A stretch of 64,000 nt of DNA from Thermincola carboxydiphila (GTDB lineage: Bacteria; Bacillota; Thermincolia; Thermincolales; UBA2595), in contig JAENYP010000001.1 in NCBI GenBank assembly GCA_016841725.1, positions 124,001 through 188,000 of the forward strand, given 5' to 3'. The notes under the pieces were generated by a model. It made no database searches and had not been told where the DNA came from. It worked only from the letters and a program-made list of their open reading frames with translations. Of the stretch, positions 3,546 to 17,929 are shown piece after piece. A program made the translations under genes and the position numbers. Position 1 is the stretch's first letter. Each line of letters opens with the position of its first letter.

Positions 3546-3595
3546 TCAATTGGTGGGCGAGAGAAGAATTGAACTTCCGACCTCTTCCGTGTCAA
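3546..3595. repeat. Left attachment repeat (3' fragment of tRNA-Val)
   Basis: Identical over 50 bp to 17850-17899. Bases 3551-3595 correspond to the last 45 bases of tRNA-Val, from the 5' edge of the anticodon loop to CCA. Confidence 0.95.
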
Positions 3596-4300: not shown

Positions 4301-4753
4301 TTAAGCCGCCTTTTCCTTTGCTTCTGCAATTGCTGTTTCAGTCACCTTCTGCCCTTCCGGGCTTTTAATAGCACTTCTCATTGCATCTAAATCTAATTCC
4401 TTACCATTTTTGATTAGCTTAACTGCACAGTGACCGAAAAAGGTTGCCTCCCATTCTATTCTGTCATGATATTCCTCCTCATGGTCATAAGCTGCAAAAT
4501 CCATTTCGTCTCTATGTAATACTGAATGACCTAATTCATGGGCAAGAGTAAGATTCACGTCAGGACTTTCAATGTCAATTACTATGATTTCTTTGCCATT
4601 ATATTTAGTCCATGCACCGTTAATTTTTTTCCCTTTATTATTCCTTAGTCCACTGACCAAATAAGCCTCTATTCCTCTTTCTTGAATGGCATTAAATAAA
4701 ACGTCCCAAACGATATCACCGGTATTACCTTCAAGTTTGCCCAATAGTTCCAT
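4301..4753 (-). CDS. ImmA/IrrE-family metallopeptidase
   Basis: Zinc-dependent endopeptidase of the ImmA/IrrE type; in integrative elements such proteins cleave a phage-type repressor and trigger excision. The HExxH motif is present as LAHELGHSVLHRD near residue 75, and downstream acidic residues (EWEATFFGHCAVKL) sit where the third zinc ligand is expected. It is 150 residues long. Start ATG at 4753 has AAGGAGGGG 6-8 bases upstream; longer readings have no ribosome site. Its natural partner would be one of the XRE/HTH proteins of this element (15081 or 4872), but it lies at the opposite end from the XRE gene, which is unusual for an immA-immR pair. Confidence 0.85.
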   Translation of the reverse strand: MELLGKLEGNTGDIVWDVLFNAIQERGIEAYLVSGLRNNKGKKINGAWTKYNGKEIIVIDIESPDVNLTLAHELGHSVLHRDEMDFAAYDHEEEYHDRIEWEATFFGHCAVKLIKNGKELDLDAMRSAIKSPEGQKVTETAIAEAKEKAA

Positions 4754-4774
4754 ATTACCCCTCCTTGTTTTCTG

Positions 4775-4820
4775 GCCCACAAGGAGATATAATAAAAATA
4801 TCCATGGTCCCCTTGTGGGC
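4775..4820. repeat. Inverted repeat between the HTH gene and the ImmA-like gene
   Basis: Ten-base arms GCCCACAAGG / CCTTGTGGGC are separated by 26 bases. No T run follows, so an attenuator, processing site or operator is as likely as a terminator. Confidence 0.45.
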
Positions 4821-4871
4821 TTTGGTGTTCGAGTGGTAGTCTGTGCCGCCAAGCTAACGACTGCCACTCCT

Positions 4872-5045
4872 TTAATTTTCCTTGATGAATTTTTCAAGGT
4901 CACTTTCTTTTACTCGCCAATCTCCACGAGTACCAATTTTCACCCCTTTCAATTTTCCATCCCTTAACCATCCCTTGATAGTCCTTACCGACAAATTTAG
5001 TGCTTCTGCAACTTGAGCCGGTGTTAGAAGTTTTTCGGTAACCAT
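4872..5045 (-). CDS. Excisionase-like HTH protein (57 aa)
   Basis: Single MerR/HTH_17-type helix-turn-helix domain: LLTPAQVAEALNLSVRTIKG followed by the wing WLRDGKLKGVKIGTRGDWR and a C-terminal helix DLEKFIKEN. This size and fold is typical of excisionases and AlpA-like activators that control integrase direction. ATG at 5045 has AAGGAGG 9 bases upstream; a GTG three codons earlier overlaps the ribosome site. TATAAT-like boxes lie 20-40 bases upstream on the minus strand. It sits near the left end of the element, about 1.3 kb from the left arm sites. Confidence 0.85.
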   Translation of the reverse strand: MVTEKLLTPAQVAEALNLSVRTIKGWLRDGKLKGVKIGTRGDWRVKESDLEKFIKEN

Positions 5046-5174
5046 TTTTGACACCTCCTTACATATTATACTTTAACTATACATTTATTATACTGTTTTT
5101 ATACGTTAATTGTCAAGATATTTTATTTATGAATAAAAAAAGACATGGTTCCCCTTGGATTTACCAAGTAATAA

Positions 5175-5764: not shown

Positions 5765-8700
5765 TTATCTGTTCTGTATCTTTTGCAGTTCTTGGTTAAG
5801 TTCTGGTCGCAGTGCTTTTGGAACCCGTTTTAATGCTTCCATAAGTTGTTGTTCCTTGGTTTTTGGATTCTTAAGTTCGTTAATTGCATTGGTTATTTGC
5901 GTATCTGACAGTTTGGAGGCGGCCTTCTTTAACTTATCCATGTTCGCTGCTGTTTTGTTCGCCTCATACTGTTTGTAAGCTTCTATGAAATCATATCGTG
6001 CTTTGTTTCTGACTTCTTCACTCGTGTACTCATAAATCTTATTTTCTATTTCTTTCTGCTTGAGCTGTGCAGGATTTACGACCCTGCCACCAAGCGGCCT
6101 TAATGGTAAGGGCTTATTTGAAGCACCGTACTCCCTCTCATCCATCCACTGCATACCTTTACTCACCGGTGGTACAAGTGATTTTAATAAATGTTTCCCG
6201 CGTATCTTCACCGCTTCTGGAGTGCCTTCAAGTTCCCTCGGAACAATGGTATAACCCCTCCAATCTTTATTTCTAGCAAGTTCGAACGGCCCTCTGATAA
6301 ACGGTGTTGCTAAATCCCAGGCAGCTCCTGCGGGGCCCGTGGCAATGTCTTTACCTTGTTTCTTTAATGCTTCCCCGATTGTTAGTTCGCCTGAGAAATA
6401 CCTTGCCACAGTGTCAGGTACAGTATGTAATCCGACCATTGAAGCTGCTATTGCTCCGGAAAACGGTATTGGAATAATGACATGGCCACCGTCTTTAGTT
6501 TGTATCCCTGTTATAAGATGCGGGTTTTCCCGCCAGTAATCAGGCAAGTTTTTCTCCACTTCAGGAAACATCACCCTGTTCCATACCGTTAATGCAGCCA
6601 TTGGCATAAATACCCTTGCAAGGCCATATAAAGGCTTCTTAGCAACCATTGAGGCATAGCTCTTAAAGTTCTGCGTGTACCATGTAATAAACGGAAACCA
6701 GAACTTTTTAGCTGCTTCAGTGTTTTTACTTAGCATATTATAATCAACCATTGTTTCCCGGCCTATCTTCGCGATAGCTTCTTCAGGAAGTAAGCCTTCG
6801 ACATCAACCGCAAACCTATTTTTCAAGGTTTTACCTGCTTGCTGCCTTTCCTGGTTTAATAGGTGTGCAGCAATCCTTGGAACAGCTTCACGATAAACCC
6901 GCCACCGCTGATAAAGTGATAACGGGTTATAATAGGCCATTTTTCCCGCCGGTCCGGCAAGTTCCCTGAGTTTAGGAGAACTAAACTTGCCAGTGCTATA
7001 CATATATACTTCACTTGAGAAAACTCCTTGTTTTAATAACTCCTTCAATCCGGGGTCTTTGTCCTTAATCATTTTAATTGCTCTTACAACCATGCCCGGC
7101 ATTTCTTTAGTACCTAGGCCAGTTGTGAACCTGTCCAGATCACCAATAAGGTTAAACCAGTCATGCTTTAAGCCCGGCATTAATACGGCAACCTTTTTCC
7201 ACCACCTGGTATAGTCTTGCAGTACTTTGGAAATCTCAGTTTCTATATTGTTTTTCCGGAAGTTGTTTAACCTGTCAGCAACCTCGGCCGGCAGAACAAA
7301 TGTCGGTTTTTTCTTGCCTACTACTAACCCCTCTTTAGTAGCCTGCCCTATTATTGTTTGAACCTCCAAGGGTAATTGTTCGGCAAGAGCTTTCTGAATC
7401 CCGCTTTCTGTTATTGTCAGCGAAGGATAGAAATAATTGCCGGTATCCGGCTGCCATGCCTTATAGCTTTTCCCATTGTATGTTTGAGGCACTCCGGTTC
7501 TCCGGATTCGTTCAATTACTTCACCAGGTACACCTGCCTTTTTAGTGTAATCCTCACCTATCTTGGCAAGGTTCTCTATTGAATCATCAATAGCATTATC
7601 TATCTTGACCTTGGTTAAAAGGTTGTGCATAGAGTCAATGTAATCCGTAGCAATTGGTTTTGAGGATCCCTTACGCCTTTGCACATAACCTCTGAATGGA
7701 GTCTTTAATTTCTCCGGCAACCCCGGTATCCTCTCGTCTAACAATTGCCCGTATTCAAACAACACCTTATGAGGGAAGTAATTTTCTCTGATAGCCTTTT
7801 CGGACATTTTCCCACGGGTCACCAAGTCCTCTGCCATAGCGTTAACTACTTCCAAATGCCTTTCATAAGCCCGTTTAAGCTTAGGGGTCAAGTATTCACT
7901 TACATTATTAAGCTCTTTACTAACCTGCTCGGATGTTAAATCAAACGGAATTTTTTCTCCCCTTCGTAAACTTTCAAGCCAATCCTCATAAACAACTTTA
8001 CGCGTAAATAAATCCATGTCAGCCCGGTTAACATCACCCAGTATGCCTTCCAATGTTTCAGTAGCCTCCATGCGGGACATGCTAGGTATCTCCTTTGCAT
8101 ACCGTATATGCTCACGCACCCGGGGGTAGTCCTTTATGGTTGGCTCAATTTGGCTGTCAGCAACTAATTTGCTTATTCTTTGCCCTATGTTTTCCCATAC
8201 TGATAAAAAGGGCTTTTGACCTGCCTTTACCGCTTCTTCCACTTCAGATATAGCGGGTTTGTACTCTCTAAGGACATCTTTTCCCCCGATAACCTTAATC
8301 CCTTGGCCCAATACCGGCGTAGTGGATTCCTTCAGTCCATTTGTTACTTCATTTCGGTGCTTAGATGTTATTTCATTAAGATAACTCTGCTCTGTCATAG
8401 GTTTTACAATTGACTCTGAAGACCTTGGTACTTCGATTGTCTTTTTAAACTGCAACTGCGGCAGAGGAGGCTTTTGTTCTGGTAACTTCGGCTTTCCTAG
8501 CATCCAATCAACTTGTCCGATCGTTTTAGTCGGTACACTGGCAGGTTTTTGCAATTTTGGTCCAAGATAATTTCTTACCGCAGGGCCTAACCCTGCTTTC
8601 TTTGTTTGCAGTTCTCCTCTCAGTGTTTGAGCGGCTTTTTGTTCTGCCTGCTCTATCCTTGCGACCGCTCCTCTTAGATTAACGCCTGCTGCCCTTTCTG

Positions 8701-9817
8701 CCTGGGCTAATGCTTCTTCAATAGTGGTTCCCGGAGGAGATTTTGCCAATACGTCATAATGACCTAAATAATTCTGGATTGCTTCTACAGCGGAGTTATA
8801 ACCTTCTATAGCTTTCTGCAACTCATTTTGAACATCAGGTTTACTGAATTTCCGTGGTTTTGCTATGTTAGCCGAAGGACCCTCAGCAGGAGGCAATGGT
8901 AACGTTTCCACTGAAACTTCCAAAGGCTCGATTTTGCCCTTGGCAAGGCTAGACCTTATCCTTTTTGCTAATGGGGATAGTGCCTTTCCTATCAACCCGG
9001 CCCCAACGTCAAACCCGGCCCACAGTGCAGCTTCTTTTCCTGCTTCAAGTGGCACTTCACGCAGCGGTACATCATTTGCCAGTGCTTTACCGGTTCCGTA
9101 TGCCGCTCCCATAGATGCCCCCTGCAAAGCTCTTCCTCCCCATTCTGCAACTTTAGGAGAGGCTTTTGAAAATACCAGTGGGGTTAATCTGTCCCCGCCA
9201 ATTTTTCCCGCTCCAAGCAACGCTCCTGCAGGCCCGGGGCCTGATAACCCTGTGCGTCCCGGGCCAGCCATTAATCCCATAATAGTACCGGCTAATTCCC
9301 CGGTAATGTCAGCGGCCTTGTTTCCGGTTGTGGGTTTTGGTATGCTCTCCCATTCTTTAGGGTCCAACATCATAGTTTGGTGTATTGCCCTTTGTGCCAC
9401 ATCAGCAATATTTCCCTTTTCTCCTGGTGTTGACGGTGCAAGCCCTGTCCTTACCAAGCGATCCTGAATTTCTTCGGGTGACATTTGTAGTTTTCCGGCC
9501 TTAAAATCCTTCCGCGTATCTGTCCACGATTCTTTAATGGCCTTTAAGGGATGCCTGAAAAAGTTAGTAACTTCTTCACCATTAACTGTCCGGGTATCTG
9601 TAAGTAAAGAAGATTTGTCCACTGTGCTTTTAGGTTTTAGTGTCGGCAAAAAGTCCATTTTTCTTTTATTTGACGTACGGCTAGCATTCATGTAACTTGA
9701 AAAACTACCGCCACTAGAAGGTTTTTCATCTTGTATGCCCAACACTTCAAAATCTATATCAACCGTGGAAGTGTTTTTATTTCTATTCCTACCCATATAA
9801 CTTGAAAAACTGCCCAA
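5765..9817 (-). CDS. Very large phage-type polyvalent / ejection-type protein
   Basis: About 1350 residues. It resembles large polyvalent proteins of phages and mobile elements, thought to enter the host with the DNA. Visible parts: an N-terminus with GSFSSYM twice (first residues and about 34 residues later); a Gly/Ala-rich hydrophobic region near 180-285 (GELAGTIMGLMAGPG and following); a charged coiled-coil middle; and a C-terminal third with FWFPFITWYTQNFKSYASM and RVFMPMAALTVWNRVMFPEV, reminiscent of the LPD38-type domain. No nuclease or peptidase motif was recognised. TTG at 9817 (MGSFSSYM) has GGGGGTG six bases upstream; GTG at 9826 is the alternative. It follows the 9831 gene closely and ends a leftward operon beginning at the terS-like gene. 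Confidence 0.75.
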   Translation of the reverse strand: MGSFSSYMGRNRNKNTSTVDIDFEVLGIQDEKPSSGGSFSSYMNASRTSNKRKMDFLPTLKPKSTVDKSSLLTDTRTVNGEEVTNFFRHPLKAIKESWTDTRKDFKAGKLQMSPEEIQDRLVRTGLAPSTPGEKGNIADVAQRAIHQTMMLDPKEWESIPKPTTGNKAADITGELAGTIMGLMAGPGRTGLSGPGPAGALLGAGKIGGDRLTPLVFSKASPKVAEWGGRALQGASMGAAYGTGKALANDVPLREVPLEAGKEAALWAGFDVGAGLIGKALSPLAKRIRSSLAKGKIEPLEVSVETLPLPPAEGPSANIAKPRKFSKPDVQNELQKAIEGYNSAVEAIQNYLGHYDVLAKSPPGTTIEEALAQAERAAGVNLRGAVARIEQAEQKAAQTLRGELQTKKAGLGPAVRNYLGPKLQKPASVPTKTIGQVDWMLGKPKLPEQKPPLPQLQFKKTIEVPRSSESIVKPMTEQSYLNEITSKHRNEVTNGLKESTTPVLGQGIKVIGGKDVLREYKPAISEVEEAVKAGQKPFLSVWENIGQRISKLVADSQIEPTIKDYPRVREHIRYAKEIPSMSRMEATETLEGILGDVNRADMDLFTRKVVYEDWLESLRRGEKIPFDLTSEQVSKELNNVSEYLTPKLKRAYERHLEVVNAMAEDLVTRGKMSEKAIRENYFPHKVLFEYGQLLDERIPGLPEKLKTPFRGYVQRRKGSSKPIATDYIDSMHNLLTKVKIDNAIDDSIENLAKIGEDYTKKAGVPGEVIERIRRTGVPQTYNGKSYKAWQPDTGNYFYPSLTITESGIQKALAEQLPLEVQTIIGQATKEGLVVGKKKPTFVLPAEVADRLNNFRKNNIETEISKVLQDYTRWWKKVAVLMPGLKHDWFNLIGDLDRFTTGLGTKEMPGMVVRAIKMIKDKDPGLKELLKQGVFSSEVYMYSTGKFSSPKLRELAGPAGKMAYYNPLSLYQRWRVYREAVPRIAAHLLNQERQQAGKTLKNRFAVDVEGLLPEEAIAKIGRETMVDYNMLSKNTEAAKKFWFPFITWYTQNFKSYASMVAKKPLYGLARVFMPMAALTVWNRVMFPEVEKNLPDYWRENPHLITGIQTKDGGHVIIPIPFSGAIAASMVGLHTVPDTVARYFSGELTIGEALKKQGKDIATGPAGAAWDLATPFIRGPFELARNKDWRGYTIVPRELEGTPEAVKIRGKHLLKSLVPPVSKGMQWMDEREYGASNKPLPLRPLGGRVVNPAQLKQKEIENKIYEYTSEEVRNKARYDFIEAYKQYEANKTAANMDKLKKAASKLSDTQITNAINELKNPKTKEQQLMEALKRVPKALRPELNQELQKIQNR

Positions 9818-9830
9818 ACTGTACACCCCC

Positions 9831-10832: not shown

Positions 10833-11258
10833 CTAATTTACTAAAACGGTTTCTTCCGAAACCAGGTCTATTATTTTTAGCACATGATTTGTTATAATCT
10901 CACAAATGTCATTATCAGAGAAATTCAACATACATCCTTCTTGAACCATGTTTCTTATGATGGAGTTCAATGCGGCAATTCGTTCCGGATAGGCAATTTT
11001 AATATCTTCAATAAATTTAGGAGTCACAGCCTCTGCATACATTATTTCAGAGTTCTGTAACTCTTCAATGAGTGTTTCTATGTTGTCATCATTCATGGCA
11101 AGCCAAGTACATACAAGAGCATAAATTCTTAAAGTATCGCTCAGTATTTGAAGAAAGTCTTTTCTGCCATAAAAAAAGGGCCAAATATGGCCTCTTATTT
11201 CTTCCCTGAAATCCCTAATGTTTTCCTCTAAGTTAAACACGCTGCCAGCTACATTCAT
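10833..11258 (-). CDS. Hypothetical helical element protein (141 aa)
   Basis: I do not recognise a family. The protein is almost all helical with alternating hydrophobic and acidic stretches (DFLQILSDTLRIYALVCTWLAM, IETLIEELQNSEIMYAEAV) and no signal peptide. Its start overlaps the stop of the upstream paralogue by 4 bases (ATGA), so translation is probably coupled. It lies between the short paralogue array and the two large virion-type genes. Confidence 0.65.
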   Translation of the reverse strand: MNVAGSVFNLEENIRDFREEIRGHIWPFFYGRKDFLQILSDTLRIYALVCTWLAMNDDNIETLIEELQNSEIMYAEAVTPKFIEDIKIAYPERIAALNSIIRNMVQEGCMLNFSDNDICEIITNHVLKIIDLVSEETVLVN

Positions 11259-11515
11259 AGACTAACCTCCTTATTTTTGATGTCTCCGAACCGCTCCCCG
11301 TAAGCAATCATGTCTATCCACCTTTCACCCGAACCGTTACGGTTCTTTTTAAGTTCCTCAAATTCGGCTAACGTATATGAAACTCGCTCACTCTGTGACA
11401 TCCCGATAATATGTCCTGGATTCTCATAGTCCTTGATATATATGGTTAACCTGTTTTCTGCGTTATTGCCCCTTAAATTTTTTTCTATTTTAGCAAGTCT
11501 ACTTTTTAACTTCAT
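11255..11515 (-). CDS. Short paralogue 5 of the N-helix family
   Basis: Fifth member of a tandem family sharing an N-terminal amphipathic helix, here MKLKSRLAKIEKNLRG, followed by an unrelated C-terminal part (NRLTIYIKDYENPGHIIGMS ...). ATG at 11515 is preferred: AAAGG lies 10 bases upstream, while a TTG six bases earlier overlaps the preceding stop. The C-terminal half begins with a beta strand like those of paralogues 2 and 3 (TVVIVQMND, FCIVYKHNN). Function unknown. Confidence 0.7.
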   Translation of the reverse strand: MKLKSRLAKIEKNLRGNNAENRLTIYIKDYENPGHIIGMSQSERVSYTLAEFEELKKNRNGSGERWIDMIAYGERFGDIKNKEVSL

Positions 11516-11517
11516 AA

Positions 11518-11739
11518 TCAACTTACCTTTCCATGGATAAAGAAATCCTCCAGCTTATGCTTTGACTTCATTCGCTCAATTCGTTCTCTTACTTCCAATG
11601 GATATGACAAATATCTATTTAAACGCTCTTCCCAATCATCTTCGAAGAAATCCTCCAATAATAGTGGTTTTATGTCATTCGGCACTAACAACTTTTCGGC
11701 TTGCTTTTCCAGCTTATTGATCCGAGATTGTATATTCAT
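11518..11739 (-). CDS. Short paralogue 4 of the N-helix family
   Basis: N-terminus MNIQSRINKLEKQAEKL matches paralogues 1 and 2 closely. The rest is acidic and helical (LLLEDFFEDDWEERLNRYLS, LEVRERIERMKSKHKLEDFF) instead of beta-strand like its siblings. ATG overlaps the upstream stop by ATGA, and AGGGGG lies 7 bases before it. Function unknown; a coiled-coil docking helix with a variable body is the simplest reading. Confidence 0.7.
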   Translation of the reverse strand: MNIQSRINKLEKQAEKLLVPNDIKPLLLEDFFEDDWEERLNRYLSYPLEVRERIERMKSKHKLEDFFIHGKVS

Positions 11740-11963
11740 TCATTTTCCCCCCTTACATTATTGGGCCTGGGAATATCTATATTTATTATGAACGTGTTTT
11801 TACTATCAAGGTCAACCAACTTCATTCCTTCTTCGATTGGACCATTGAAGCCTAGTGAAGGAATATTCATCGTGTTATTGTGTTTATAGACAATGCAGAA
11901 AACCTCTTTACTGTCTACTCTCAATGATTTTTCAATATTATCAATTCTTTTTTTTAACTTCAT
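11736..11963 (-). CDS. Short paralogue 3 of the N-helix family
   Basis: N-terminus MKLKKRIDNIEKSLR, then a beta-rich body (EVFCIVYKHNNTMNIPSLGF, MKLVDLDSKNTFIINIDIPR). The ATG at 11963 overlaps the stop of the upstream gene (ATGA) and gives the family N-terminus at residue 1; a longer frame adds eight unrelated residues. Translationally coupled on both sides. Confidence 0.7.
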   Translation of the reverse strand: MKLKKRIDNIEKSLRVDSKEVFCIVYKHNNTMNIPSLGFNGPIEEGMKLVDLDSKNTFIINIDIPRPNNVRGENE

Positions 11964-12190
11964 CCGGCACACTCCAAATCGTCCCAAATGATTGTTGAGC
12001 CGCCTTCATAGAAAGGTGTTAGAAATGTCTCAATGTCTTTTAATATGCCGTCATATACAACCTTACCCGATTCTAGAACCTCCCATATTCCAGTTTTATC
12101 ATTCATTTGAACTATAACAACTGTATTGAAAGGTCTAAATATCTTCCCTGCATCTTTCTCCAATTTTCGTATTCGAGACTGAACATTCAC
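11960..12190 (-). CDS. Short paralogue 2 of the N-helix family
   Basis: Starts MNVQSRIRKLEKDAG with a GTG codon that shares one base with the upstream stop (TAGTG). The body is NTVVIVQMNDKTGIWEVLES and FYEGGSTIIWDDLECAG, predicted beta-rich. Ten of its first eleven residues are identical to paralogue 1, which is strong evidence for recent tandem duplication of the N-terminal part only. Confidence 0.72.
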   Translation of the reverse strand: MNVQSRIRKLEKDAGKIFRPFNTVVIVQMNDKTGIWEVLESGKVVYDGILKDIETFLTPFYEGGSTIIWDDLECAG

Positions 12191-12372
12191 TATGTCCTAC
12201 CCTCCAATTCATTCAAAGAATTTTCAAGTGCTTCACCAAACTCTGGTAAACATATAATTTCTTGTTCCATTTCCAAGGCTCCATAAACGTCTTCTATGCA
12301 GACACACCCTTGTTTATTTGTTTTGATGGCAATATTCTCTTCTAATTTGCGTATGCGAGACTGAACACTCAT
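12190..12372 (-). CDS. Short paralogue 1 of the N-helix family (60 aa)
   Basis: Begins MSVQSRIRKLEENIAIKTNK and continues with a short acidic body containing one Cys pair (GCVCIEDVYGALEMEQEII). The start overlaps the terS-like stop (TAATG). It is the first gene behind the small terminase, so the family may serve packaging or particle assembly; this is inferred from position only. Confidence 0.7.
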   Translation of the reverse strand: MSVQSRIRKLEENIAIKTNKQGCVCIEDVYGALEMEQEIICLPEFGEALENSLNELEGRT

Positions 12373-13416: not shown

Positions 13417-13514
13417 GGGCTATTTTTAGCCTACTAAAACTTAGTAATTATCAGGTTTTTAAGTGTTTTGTGGGCTAAATTTAGCCTACTTACTGGGCTA
13501 TTTTTAGCCTAGCC
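13417..13514. repeat. Origin-like iterons GGGCTAWWTTTAGCCTA
   Basis: Three direct copies start at 13417, 13472 and 13495. The middle one contains the perfect palindrome GGCTAAATTTAGCC. A fourth, partial copy (TTTTTAGCCCACTAAAC) is near 13328. The last copy overlaps the 3' end of the initiator-like gene, a usual arrangement for iterons and their Rep protein. Confidence 0.65.
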
Positions 13515-13924
13515 TTTTTATTTTTGGTTGCCGTAGAATCCCTTTTACGGCGGGGGTCTATCTTGAATTCTGGTGTTCCATACTTCTGCCACATAGAGCT
13601 AAACCCGTATATATTACACTCTCTGCTTGTCCAGGACTGCCGTATTACCTTTATGAAGCCATATTCTATTAGTTCATCTATGGCCTTTGTGAAGGTGTTC
13701 TTGTGCATTAGCTTTTGCCCCTCGGCGTAAGTAAGAGATATATCGTTTTCATTATTAAAGTTGTACTTTGATTTCATGTACATATAAACAACCATTGCAT
13801 GACAGCTTAACTTTTTCCAGGCAGCCGATTCTAGCATATTGTTAGTTATCCGCAAGTGTTTAGCGGTTTTTGTTTTACTCTCAAAGGGTTTAAACTCAAA
13901 ATCTTTCTTGCTCTTTTTAGCCAT
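13490..13924 (-). CDS. Winged-helix replication initiator-like protein (144 aa)
   Basis: Small basic protein with one winged-helix domain: RITNNMLESAAWKKLSCHAM, VYMYMKSKYNF, then a recognition region LMHKNTFTKAIDELIEYGFI and the wing KVIRQSWTSRECNIYGFS. This layout is common in replication or relaxosome proteins of Firmicute mobile elements. ATG at 13924 with GGGGGTGA 4 bases upstream. The adjacent iterons, one of which forms its last codons, support a role in origin recognition. A pure transcription regulator is the alternative. Confidence 0.65.
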   Translation of the reverse strand: MAKKSKKDFEFKPFESKTKTAKHLRITNNMLESAAWKKLSCHAMVVYMYMKSKYNFNNENDISLTYAEGQKLMHKNTFTKAIDELIEYGFIKVIRQSWTSRECNIYGFSSMWQKYGTPEFKIDPRRKRDSTATKNKKARLKIAQ

Positions 13925-15080: not shown

Positions 15081-15311
15081 CTACATAGCCTCAGCATTAT
15101 TTTTTATAATATCTCCAACTGATATAGAAGCGAGCAATTCACTTATAGGTTTATTAAACTCTTTTTCTAAACGTTCTTTTACAGCCGCTGATGGAACAAG
15201 TCTACCGTTCTCTAATAACGAGTACCACGGTAAAGACATTTCTAATCTTCCTGCTACCTGACCCTGATTTTCTCCCCTCGCTAAGCGAATAGCTTTTAGA
15301 TTGGTAAGCAT
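15081..15311 (-). CDS. XRE-family repressor-like protein (76 aa)
   Basis: Cro/CI-type helix-turn-helix: LKAIRLARGENQGQVAGRLE, MSLPWYSLLENGRLVPSAAV and KERLEKEFNKPISELLA. It has only the DNA-binding domain, without a C-terminal cleavage or dimerisation domain, so it resembles Cro more than CI. ATG at 15311 with GGGAGGG 8 bases upstream. It is transcribed away from the 15473 gene across a 161-bp switch region with a repeated operator-like sequence. Confidence 0.85.
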   Translation of the reverse strand: MLTNLKAIRLARGENQGQVAGRLEMSLPWYSLLENGRLVPSAAVKERLEKEFNKPISELLASISVGDIIKNNAEAM

Positions 15312-15472: not shown

Positions 15473-16534
15473 ATGAGCGGTATACAGGAATTGCCCAAAA
15501 TGGAAATTACGTTTATTGATGGAGATTTCGAAACGATCCAATCAGGGAAACTATCGAAAACTTCGTCTGAAGATGGTAGGTTTAACGGTGAATATATAAT
15601 ATCAGTTTATGGACCGGCTTATAAGAAACCTACTGGGACATTGTTAATAGAATTTCTGGAAATTGATTTCACGAAACATGATTCCTTCAACTTATTTATT
15701 AATAAGTGGGGCATTAGTGGATTAGCGGAACATTCAGCAACTGCAAAAGGAGTTTTATTAATAGAGTATAGTGAAAAAGAATATCAAAAAATGCTAAATG
15801 ATATTTGGATTGAATGTGGGTACATCCTTGAACAAATTCAAGAGAAATTTAAAAATGCCGTATATTACTGTCTCGATATTAATGGCCCCGAATGGTCAGA
15901 TAACCTTGACCCGCTCCAAAGGTTCTTTTTAATGCAGGAAAGAAATAGCTCATTATTTGACTTTAAAGAGTACGGCACTAATTTGAGTGTACAGTTTGAA
16001 GTTGAACCCAAAATTAATGCAATGACTTATAAACAATATCAAAACTTTTATAACACAATATCGGATGGTAATCAGTCTGAGGCCGCAGGAATAATTAAAG
16101 GTATAAATTTTAAAACATCGGAAACTTACTTAAGCCCGGATATAGCCGCAATTCTATATCTAGAATTTAAGCAAATGATTTTAAATAACAAACTTATCAA
16201 ATTATGCGATAATTGCCAGAGGTATTTTATTCCCCCGCGTTCTAATGCTAAGTATTGTGACAGACCTTTAAGCGAAGAAGATCAGCGTACCTGTAGAACT
16301 GTAGGAGCGGTACAAAAACATATGAGGCGGGTTGACAACGACCCTTTAAAAGTAGCTTATAGAAAAGCATATAAATCCGCACATGCCAGAATTCATAGTT
16401 CTAAAACAATACAATACGACGAACGTGAAAGTGTTTTTCGTGCCTGGGTGGACGAAGCCAAGGCAAGAATAAAGGAAGTTGAAAAAGGGGAAATTTCTCT
16501 TGAACAATTTAACAAATGGGCAAAGGAGGGTTAA
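15473..16534 (+). CDS. Cys-motif (DUF6076-like) protein preceding the integrase
   Basis: 353 residues, AT-rich relative to the chromosome. The C-terminal part carries a probable zinc site: LCDNCQRYFIPPRSNAKYCD then TCRTVGAVQKHMRR, the arrangement of the DUF6076 family found beside integrases of clostridial elements. The N-terminal 200 residues have no motif I recognise. ATG at 15473 with GGGAGGGG upstream. It is followed by the integrase after two bases, so both are expressed from the switch promoter; a role in integration or repression control is plausible but not shown. Family name is from memory of the Cys pattern. Confidence 0.7.
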   Translation: MSGIQELPKMEITFIDGDFETIQSGKLSKTSSEDGRFNGEYIISVYGPAYKKPTGTLLIEFLEIDFTKHDSFNLFINKWGISGLAEHSATAKGVLLIEYSEKEYQKMLNDIWIECGYILEQIQEKFKNAVYYCLDINGPEWSDNLDPLQRFFLMQERNSSLFDFKEYGTNLSVQFEVEPKINAMTYKQYQNFYNTISDGNQSEAAGIIKGINFKTSETYLSPDIAAILYLEFKQMILNNKLIKLCDNCQRYFIPPRSNAKYCDRPLSEEDQRTCRTVGAVQKHMRRVDNDPLKVAYRKAYKSAHARIHSSKTIQYDERESVFRAWVDEAKARIKEVEKGEISLEQFNKWAKEG

Positions 16535-16536
16535 TA

Positions 16537-17715
16537 ATGGCAAAGAAAAAAGGTAAACGTCCACAAGGTGAGGGTTCAGTGTACCAACGCAAAGATGGTA
16601 AATGGGAATGTAAAATACCTGTCGGTAAGGACCCATCAACCGGCAAACTGAAGCGTAAAAGTTTTTATGGTGCATCCCAGGAGGAAGTCCGGAAAAAGCG
16701 AGATGAATATTTAACCCAAAAAAGGACAGGCACATATATTGAGCCATCTAAATTGACCGTGGGGCCGTTTGTAGGTGACTGGTTGAAGGTATTTGTTAAG
16801 CCCAATAAAAAAGCGGCCACCTACGCCAAATATGAGAGTGTCTATCTTACCCATATCAATAAAGACCTAGGTAATATCGAATTACAGAAACTAACTACCA
16901 TGAAGGTTCAGGAGTTTTATAATACTAAGGCCGCTAAGTTGTCCAGCAGTGCAGTTTCAATAATTCACATTGTTTTGCATGGGGCTATGGAGTATGCAGT
17001 AGAGGAAAAACTAATTCCTAAGAATCCGACAAGCAAAACTAAGCGGCCATCCGTCAAGCATAAAGAAGTGGTTGTAATGACTGAAGAAGAACTGCAAAAA
17101 TACCTCCTGGCAGCTAAAGAATATAGAATGTTTGCAGCCTTCTTTACCGCCTTAACTACCGGCCTACGCCGTGGGGAATTGTGTGCTTTACGTTGGAAGC
17201 ATATCGACTTCAAAAAGGAAATTCTTAAGGTAAGGGAATCCCTTAATCGCGTCCAGGTTGAACGGGGCAAAACTGAATTAAGGATTGATACTTTAAAAAC
17301 TGACAACGCTAAACGGGACATACCCCTCCTGCCCGAGACCATCAAGATACTTAAAGACCATAGGGAAAAACAGAAGAAGGAGCGGCAGGATATCGAAGGA
17401 GAAAATAAAGTAGTTGAACTCAAAGATAATAGTTTAGTATTCTGCACCGAGGAAGGCAAATTCTACGAACCCCGTAACCTTCTGAGACTGCATAAGGTAA
17501 TATTGAAAAAAGCCGGCTTGCGAACGGATATAAAAATTCACACCTTACGGCACCAATTCGCCACAATGCTTCTAAAGAAGAATGTGAATCTTAAATACAT
17601 CATTGATCTCCTGGGACATGCGGACGAAAGAATGGTATTGAGGACATATGGCCACAGTGACGACCAAGACCTGAAAAACGCTATCCTTGAACTTAAAGAC
17701 GTGATAAAAGCCTAG
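16537..17715 (+). CDS. int: Tyrosine recombinase (integrase)
   Basis: Site-specific recombinase of the Tn916/phage Int class. Order: N-terminal arm-binding domain with the AP2-like repeat region (GEGSVYQRKDGKWECKIPVG), core-binding SAM-like domain (TVGPFVGDWLKVFVKP onward), and catalytic domain with Arg in TTGLRRGELCALRW, HTLRHQFAT (His and Arg), LLGHADERM and the nucleophile Tyr in LRTYGHS near the C-terminus. All catalytic residues seem intact. ATG at 16537 with AAAGGAGGG; a longer reading into the upstream gene lacks a ribosome site. It lies 135 bases from the attachment repeat, at the side with the intact tRNA. Confidence 0.95.
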   Translation: MAKKKGKRPQGEGSVYQRKDGKWECKIPVGKDPSTGKLKRKSFYGASQEEVRKKRDEYLTQKRTGTYIEPSKLTVGPFVGDWLKVFVKPNKKAATYAKYESVYLTHINKDLGNIELQKLTTMKVQEFYNTKAAKLSSSAVSIIHIVLHGAMEYAVEEKLIPKNPTSKTKRPSVKHKEVVVMTEEELQKYLLAAKEYRMFAAFFTALTTGLRRGELCALRWKHIDFKKEILKVRESLNRVQVERGKTELRIDTLKTDNAKRDIPLLPETIKILKDHREKQKKERQDIEGENKVVELKDNSLVFCTEEGKFYEPRNLLRLHKVILKKAGLRTDIKIHTLRHQFATMLLKKNVNLKYIIDLLGHADERMVLRTYGHSDDQDLKNAILELKDVIKA

Positions 17716-17849: not shown

Positions 17850-17899
17850 TCAATTGGTGGGCGAGAGAAGAATTGAACTTCCGACCTCTTCCGTGTCAA
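17850..17899. repeat. Right attachment repeat within tRNA-Val
   Basis: Second copy of the 50-bp repeat, identical to 3546-3595, ending exactly at the 5' edge of the anticodon loop. Confidence 0.95.
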
Positions 17900-17929
17900 G
17901 GAAGCGTTCTCCCACTGAACTACTCGCCC
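17855..17929 (-). tRNA. tRNA-Val (anticodon GAC)
   Basis: 75 bases including encoded CCA. Acceptor GGGCGAG/CTCGCCC, anticodon stem CTTCC/GGAAG with loop TTGACAC, T arm containing GTTCAATTC. The 3' 45 bases come from the integrated element but preserve the sequence. Confidence 0.95.

Follow-up and report, generated by a model that had tools for sequence, protein, structure and literature searches.

A tandem N-terminal tag on the giant ejection-type protein of a satellite-like island and its possible match in the tail of a partner protein

The window analyzed here is a 64,000-nucleotide stretch of Thermincola carboxydiphila contig JAENYP010000001.1 (positions 124,001 to 188,000), and contains a 14.4-kb island at a tRNA-Val gene that is bounded by an exact 50-bp direct repeat. 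On its minus strand the island encodes a giant LPD38-like ejection-type protein, with the gene for a smaller protein, here called the partner, directly upstream (Table 1). The giant open reading frame (ORF) is 1353 amino acids (aa) long if translation starts at the GTG at 9826. The TTG at 9815-9817 is probably the better start, since a strong AAGGGGGTG ribosome-binding site, read by eye, lies six bases ahead of it; the giant would then begin MGSFSSYM.

A sequence-only reading of this window had noted that GSFSSYM occurs twice at the N-terminus of the giant and had proposed a recognition tag, perhaps for particle loading or cleavage. The duplication is confirmed, with a spacing of 35 residues in place of the roughly 34 first given. 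At the DNA level the two copies differ at two positions, both synonymous, and a degenerate GSFSSYM-coding pattern found only these two sites in this genome and none in nine relatives, some of whose genomes are incomplete. The repeat exceeds chance: over the first 100 aa it scores a z value of 5.6, which 0 of 200 shuffles matched, and shuffling the first 60 aa 50,000 times produced an exact 6-mer repeat 5 times. The repeat scripts began the giant at 9814, one codon past the TTG, so that the first G was read as M and SFSSYM was unaffected.

The sole close homologue found is the giant of L005, a related island in a Firmicutes metagenome-assembled genome that has similar genes between 45-bp repeats at a tRNA-Pro gene. 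Identity between the two giants is 46% for window aa 63-308 and 75-76% for the C-terminal body (aa 481-1353). Where the window giant has GSFSSYM, the L005 giant reads MAWKLTSQLQ...FKLTSQLQ, a duplication of KLTSQLQ in which the copies use the same codon at 2 of 7 positions. The homologue thus lacks both copies of GSFSSYM and yet has a duplicated tag; what is kept is the tandem arrangement and not the sequence itself. Measured against the refuting case named in the earlier reading, a packaged homologue without either copy, this would tell against GSFSSYM as such if the L005 giant is packaged, but not against a duplicated tag. While the giant bodies of the two islands are similar, their tags are unrelated, and their partners are alike only around a common 29-aa central stretch, with C-terminal tails that are also unrelated.

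LPD38 giants were gathered by way of their C-terminal domain from prophages, phage records and IMG/VR contigs, the IMG/VR scans covering the best 80 of 405 relatives and then the best 80 of 201. Apart from the two island proteins, the giants of the first two sets were picked without regard to their N-termini, and a later set was fetched with the LPD38 domains of giants bearing a 21-aa repeat (class B, below). For each 100-aa segment the best ungapped self-repeat was compared with shuffles of that segment, with p<=0.01 taken as significant; N-terminal and internal segments were compared without matching for disorder. Self-repeats were found in the first 100 aa of 15 of 38 giants in the first set, 5 of them redundant, versus 23 of 853 internal segments. 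The second set comprised 74 new loci, of which 64 remained after removal of 10 with an open 5' end and 48 after removal of 16 redundant ones; 16 of these 48 giants had an N-terminal self-repeat, versus 23 of 870 internal segments (Fisher 3.6e-12). Pooling both sets without the five redundant giants gives N-terminal repeats in 27 of 81 giants and 43 of 1622 internal segments. The enrichment lies in the first segment (27/81), with 3 to 7 of 81 in each of the next five and 17 of 1217 in later ones. The later set was reduced from 67 loci to 56 by setting aside 11 on contigs already present, to 48 without 8 that were open or lacked the partner end, and to 32 without 16 that were redundant or like the earlier set; 19 of these 32 giants have an N-terminal repeat (6 of 16 outside the 21-aa class) versus 10 of 412 internal segments.

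Other ORFs of at least 220 aa in the same loci carried an N-terminal repeat in 15 of 211 cases, or 15 of 174 when the window's genes are removed (100 shuffles). Since several of these ORFs belong to the ejection cassette next to the giant, the feature is perhaps not restricted to the giant. Duplicated N-terminal modules were seen slightly upstream of the giant in L035 (3879-5234, a module of about 35 aa present twice), L031 (11180-12265) and L050 (6143-7396).

The repeats fall into two classes. Class A, to which the window belongs, consists of short linear tags, each with its own sequence; examples, some of them under the significance threshold, are GSFSSYM, KLTSQLQ, [DN]PFADLP, RVLYEDPDE and SLFDLYSxPLPGV, along with three tags that occur in triplicate, namely W[VI]DVP, IDLSDLPP (one copy varied) and DEWAxFPPV (third copy looser). 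In class B the repeated unit is 21 aa long, LxxAGFxxxEIxxW; it is present in two copies and carried by Pelagibacter phage HTVC034P among others. Other cultured phages with a tandem tag are Vibrio phage vB_ValP_FGH and coliphage PTXU04, the repeat of the latter falling short of significance (p 0.02). A third in-frame tag copy lies deep within the giants of L044 (aa 608), L136 (aa 579) and L144 (aa 231), which looks like the outcome of a fusion between proteins that each had a tag. A search for tag copies in the other proteins of 26 loci gave none that were convincing and one loose match in L027; outside the window this search covered 11-24 kb per locus, much of it filled by the giant.

Across 25 tagged giants, a count that omits the L118 row, the copies use the same codon in 81 of 171 pairs of identical residues with degenerate codons, where about 77 would be expected under independent choice. 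Codon sharing this close to the independent expectation indicates that most copies are not recent DNA duplications and that, in the pooled data, the peptide seems to be what selection keeps. Together with the double tag of the homologue and the N-terminal enrichment, this bears out the earlier proposal of a recognition tag in outline, though not the conservation of GSFSSYM as such. The suggested particle loading is plausible, with P1 DarB (below) as an experimental precedent. We found no support for the suggested role in cleavage. In T4, SPN3US and P1, prohead proteases trim propeptides from the N-termini of head proteins, and the duplicated motif might be such a site; however, the tag sequences vary widely, and the one common core that was tried, of the FxxY/L type, was unenriched in a post hoc count (9 of 113 N-termini versus 302 of 4131 internal segments). 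A protease site is thus a most unlikely explanation. Two or more matches to this core were present in 7 of 113 N-termini versus 32 of 3431 internal segments, likewise counted post hoc.

We tentatively propose, with confidence just short of even, that the GSFSSYM pair is a tandem docking tag that builds the satellite-borne giant into the ejection complex of helper particles, likely via the partner tail. The satellite-like island would bring a giant internal virion protein into helper-phage particles, where the tandem tag would let it join the complex of ejected proteins within the head. The most likely receptor would be the C-terminal tail of the protein encoded just before the giant, which here is the 328-aa partner; two partner molecules per giant, which two tags would suit, are conceivable as speculation. 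The tag varies: across LPD38 giants, unrelated duplicated tags take its place, and in three pairs of loci the partner tail differs along with the tag, as expected if a docking pair must match.

Tag and tail are paired in class B. Partners of class B giants end in [ED][STGA]x(2-4)[YFV][LM]x[RK], a tail of the GE[ST]..Y[LM]KR type, in 13 of 14 cases versus 0 of 59 others. As the class B and tail patterns were written after the first set, the independent test is confined to the 32 later phages, among which the fixed patterns found the tail motif in 7 of 16 class B loci versus 0 of 16 others. The fixed tail pattern passed over clear variants in L172, L178, L192, L194 and L216, and a second tail type is present in L188, L200, L207 and L215. 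In the same hold-out, the similarity of tags correlated with that of the last 45 aa of the partners, given the body, with r 0.33 (reached in 0 of 500 permutations), compared with r -0.04 for partner positions -110 to -60 and r 0.12 (11 of 500) for giant aa 60-110; the partner segments outside the tail and the giant C-terminus were uncorrelated with the tag. The tag-tail correlation was also the highest among the segments tried in the first set (0.163). The second tail type, GMSxxEYxxSxxYxxW or similar, occurs in L138, L187, L202 and L208 as well; by eye it accompanies a variant of the 21-aa repeat in which YR often replaces W, a hint of sub-specificity.

In class A tag and tail are weakly coupled, so that docking of the window tag is argued from analogy and from pairs of loci in which the tag has been swapped. 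When unrelated class A pairs are ranked by the similarity of their tails, the tags of the top 20 are only slightly more alike than otherwise (0.093 versus 0.083, p 0.018; top 10, p 0.078). The window partner and the L082 partner have similar tails (VYxALMxEIxxxFP), with a family-wise p of 1 in 301; this likeness is suggestive at best, as another partner reaches almost the same score with a segment outside its tail (51 versus 55). The partner tails of L077 and L144, which are otherwise unrelated, both end in ALTWIP, and both loci have LDDF/LDSF tags. By eye, the duplicated tag of the L049 giant (EAVEYLKSNPDTWSQFKSTFGTLP) resembles the C-terminal tail of the L107 partner (AIQALRQDPSLADEFKAKYNYLP).

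Two pairs of closely related loci show the replacement of tags on near-identical bodies. The giants of L107 and L118 are 94% identical over their aligned parts, and those of L111 and L131 95%, with unrelated tags in both pairs: SNFFDQFDE/SNFFDKFDD in L107 and NPFADLPD/DPFADLPD in L118, IDPFTKKE/IDPFAEEQ in L111 and LTEANKRGIL/YDEAVKRGLI in L131. Identity rises to 98% soon after the tag in the first pair, where the L118 giant exceeds the L107 giant by 370 aa, and to 95% from alignment column 120 in the second. The partners of L111 and L131 have a per-block identity of 78-100% in the first 300 aligned columns and 9-35% beyond, and the C-terminal end of the partner differs between L107 and L118 too. 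L111 and L123 have the same tag and tail, though their bodies diverge more than those of L111 and L131.

N-terminal capsid-targeting sequences are known, as are ejection complexes, and a tag of the T4 or P1 DarB kind would bind scaffold, capsid or portal during head assembly. The likeness to T4 IPIII and P1 DarB lies in a short N-terminal stretch on a head-carried protein, the giant being a putative cargo. In T4, the capsid targeting sequence is common to several cargo proteins of one phage. LPD38 tags differ in being often tandem, phage-specific and wholly different on near-identical bodies, and their loading role is putative. In P1, the 250-kDa DarB, which is believed to be injected, is itself a giant loaded via its N-terminus: its first 30 residues direct a reporter to the capsid, with residues 6-10 implicated (PMC9024508). 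The Dar proteins have no N-terminal consensus (PMC9024508), a situation like that of the tags here, and an argument against capsid targeting is weakened by it. The position of the tags fits capsid targeting as well, the first copy beginning at aa 1-16 in 16 of 16 significant giants of the second set. Capsid targeting does not predict, however, that the tag should pair with the partner tail, and the putative targets have changed little where the tags have been swapped: between L107 and L118 a capsid-like protein of 310 aa is 96% identical and a scaffold-like protein of 329 aa 93% (both assigned by eye, the portal lying outside the comparison), and between L111 and L131 a 375-aa protein, capsid-like by eye, is 99% identical. 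We consider capsid targeting rather unlikely.

A precedent for the contact that docking would require comes from T7, in which the C-terminal domain of gp15 is stabilised by the N-terminal part of gp16 (gp16-N); gp15 is octameric and four gp16 copies are visible (PMC8954989). T7 is thus an instance both of the largest ejection protein touching the C-terminal region of another through its N-terminus and of an excess of the partner. Unlike the giants here, gp16-N has a transglycosylase domain instead of a tandem short tag (PMC8954989). The T7 contact is described in the tunnel formed after ejection (PMC8954989), which would suit a tag that works only then, by keeping the giant within the ejectosome or by binding a host factor, with no role in loading. 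A host target would leave the pairing with the partner tail unexplained, as it would the different tags on bodies 94-95% identical unless the hosts differ, and we regard a purely post-ejection role as improbable. The gp15 and gp16 genes of T7 are adjacent.

Several observations weigh against the docking reading. The swaps are not limited to tag and tail, since many other genes vary in these pairs: of 22 genes compared between L107 and L118, 8 are at least 87% identical, 8 are at 41-75% and 6 are unmatched (two of them probably lying beyond the fetched stretch), and of 16 compared between L111 and L131, 8 are at least 90% identical, 3 are at 81-88% and 5 at 47-73%. The middle of the partner also differs between L107 and L118. 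Conversely, the giant N-termini of L099 and L105 are 60% identical, yet the partner tails are 87% identical. In the first set every non-tail segment tried, except giant aa 110-160, correlated with the tag above its null, including partner positions -110 to -60 (0.071), the partner N-terminus (0.070), giant aa 60-110 (0.074) and the giant C-terminus (0.120). For class A, the tag-tail correlation across unrelated phages is r 0.054 versus 0.052 for the neighbouring giant segment, or 0.071 versus 0.067 in another estimate. Tag and tail are also neighbours in the genome, so block exchange without contact is possible. As to a helper, an LPD38 search of the genome matched the island giant only, this being the one helper search made. 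The window copies share the same codon at 4 of 5 positions, and the GSFSSYM pair may therefore be a fairly recent duplication, while 54 of the 81 pooled giants have no significant N-terminal repeat, and so a duplicated tag is not required in general. Both of these points favour a duplication that arose by chance or neutrally while a disordered N-terminus evolved fast; the enrichment of repeats over internal segments and other N-termini, and the randomised synonymous sites across 25 giants in which the peptide stays, make that explanation quite improbable.

The docking reading can be widened, in a form we consider possible but doubtful, to a portable docking code used by LPD38 phages, in which N-terminal tandem modules would match the partner tail and be exchanged with it as a cassette, and which satellites would use as well. 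The satellite's own partner and tagged giant would then fill the particle instead of the helper's cargo. To our knowledge, little is understood of how podovirus heads come to be loaded with particular giant proteins. If the proposal is true, a tag that is short and exchangeable and whose partner can be predicted makes giant loading testable on a few residues, helps account for the shuffling of ejection cassettes between phages, and points to a route by which satellites could load their own proteins into helper particles. In the open-access literature, judged by titles and the beginnings of abstracts, we found nothing on ejection giants with a duplicated tag at the N-terminus or on satellites with their own ejection proteins. 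Nor did we find there any tandem tags that are phage-specific, can be swapped and are coupled to the tail of a partner.

The partners link the two islands to ejection-cassette prophages in related bacteria, which are podovirus-like by eye. In two such prophages the protein encoded immediately ahead of the giant matches the L005 partner, with identities of 43% (162 aa) and 32% (199 aa), and aa 2-49 of the window partner are 52% identical to aa 81-126 of one prophage ejection-cassette protein (48 aa). The window partner resembles a hybrid, with the N-terminal module of one prophage ejection-cassette protein and a central stretch in common with relatives of the next; given this hybrid look, the island may compress a three-protein ejection cassette into two.

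The giant itself is a divergent member of its kind. Its score against PF18857 lies under the 27-bit Pfam gathering cut-off and was 22.9 bits in the genome search; the LPD38-like stretch ends 148 aa before the C-terminus, compared with 100-207 aa in 8 other prophage loci. A domain of this type near the C-terminus and a phage-type neighbourhood are shared with the LPD38 large polyvalent proteins, for which the accessible text of the source mentions no duplicated N-terminal tag (Iyer et al. 2017, PMC5512222). PHROG and NCBIfam scans of the giant gave no match, nor did searches with the full-length protein in an annotated phage collection or in IMG/VR via peptide patterns; a full-length search of genome contigs returned one relative. 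A giant profile matched three of 398 genomes of the phylum, and the G337 match was set aside because it covers only about 100 positions within the variable middle region. AlphaFold2 gave no usable model of the C-terminal 874 aa (mean pLDDT 35.6), and a PDB sequence search gave two matches at chance level (E 0.42 and 0.51). The long membrane-entering hydrophobic region proposed earlier is weakly borne out: Kyte-Doolittle means over 19 aa peak at 1.66 for aa 1115-1133, and the remaining maxima do not exceed 1.12.

Table 1. Features of the island and the giant protein, in positions of the window
Feature	Position	Strand	Remarks
attL-like copy of 50-bp direct repeat	3546..3595		left island end
ImmA/IrrE-like (M78) peptidase	4301..4903	minus	PF06114, 22.2 bits, cut-off 22
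Excisionase-like HTH protein	4872..5054	minus	TIGR01764, 44.5 bits, above cut-off; phrog_66
Giant LPD38-like ejection-type protein	5765..9826	minus	divergent LPD38 type; TTG at 9817 likely start
LPD38-like stretch, giant aa 1092-1205	6212..6553	minus	Pfam PF18857, E 2.6e-4, 21.6 bits
Tag copy 2, GSFSSYM, giant aa 40-46	9689..9709	minus	
Tag copy 1, GSFSSYM, giant aa 5-11	9794..9814	minus	
Partner protein, 328 aa	9831..10817	minus	immediately upstream of giant
Small-terminase-like protein, 132 aa	12372..12770	minus	phrog_3218, E 2.8e-9
Replication-initiator-like protein	13490..13924	minus	weak DnaD / RepA_N-like matches
Phage-repressor-like HTH protein	15081..15311	minus	phrog_3, E 6.9e-7
DUF6076 protein	15473..16534	plus	PF19553, E 5.3e-15
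Tyrosine integrase	16516..17715	plus	PF00589, E 8.6e-26; phrog_1
attR-like copy of 50-bp direct repeat	17850..17899		overlaps 3' part of tRNA-Val
tRNA-Val	17855-17929	minus	

The remaining genes of the island resemble those of phage-inducible chromosomal islands (PICI) and other phage satellites, with a tRNA-sited integrase, att repeats and excisionase-, repressor- and small-terminase-like genes. Among 19 island proteins scanned with PHROG (9 of them also with Pfam and 7 with NCBIfam; the set leaves out other short or antisense ORFs) none was identified as a large terminase, a portal or a capsid protein. Unlike such satellites, the island has its own ejection-type gene pair. We infer that it is a satellite that would rely on a phage of the ejection-cassette type as helper, and a same-genus genome holds a candidate helper-type prophage. 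The partner and the small-terminase-like gene are separated, at 11255-12372 on the minus strand, by five successive small genes whose products begin SRIxKLEK-like and then diverge; the L005 island has matches to three of the five.

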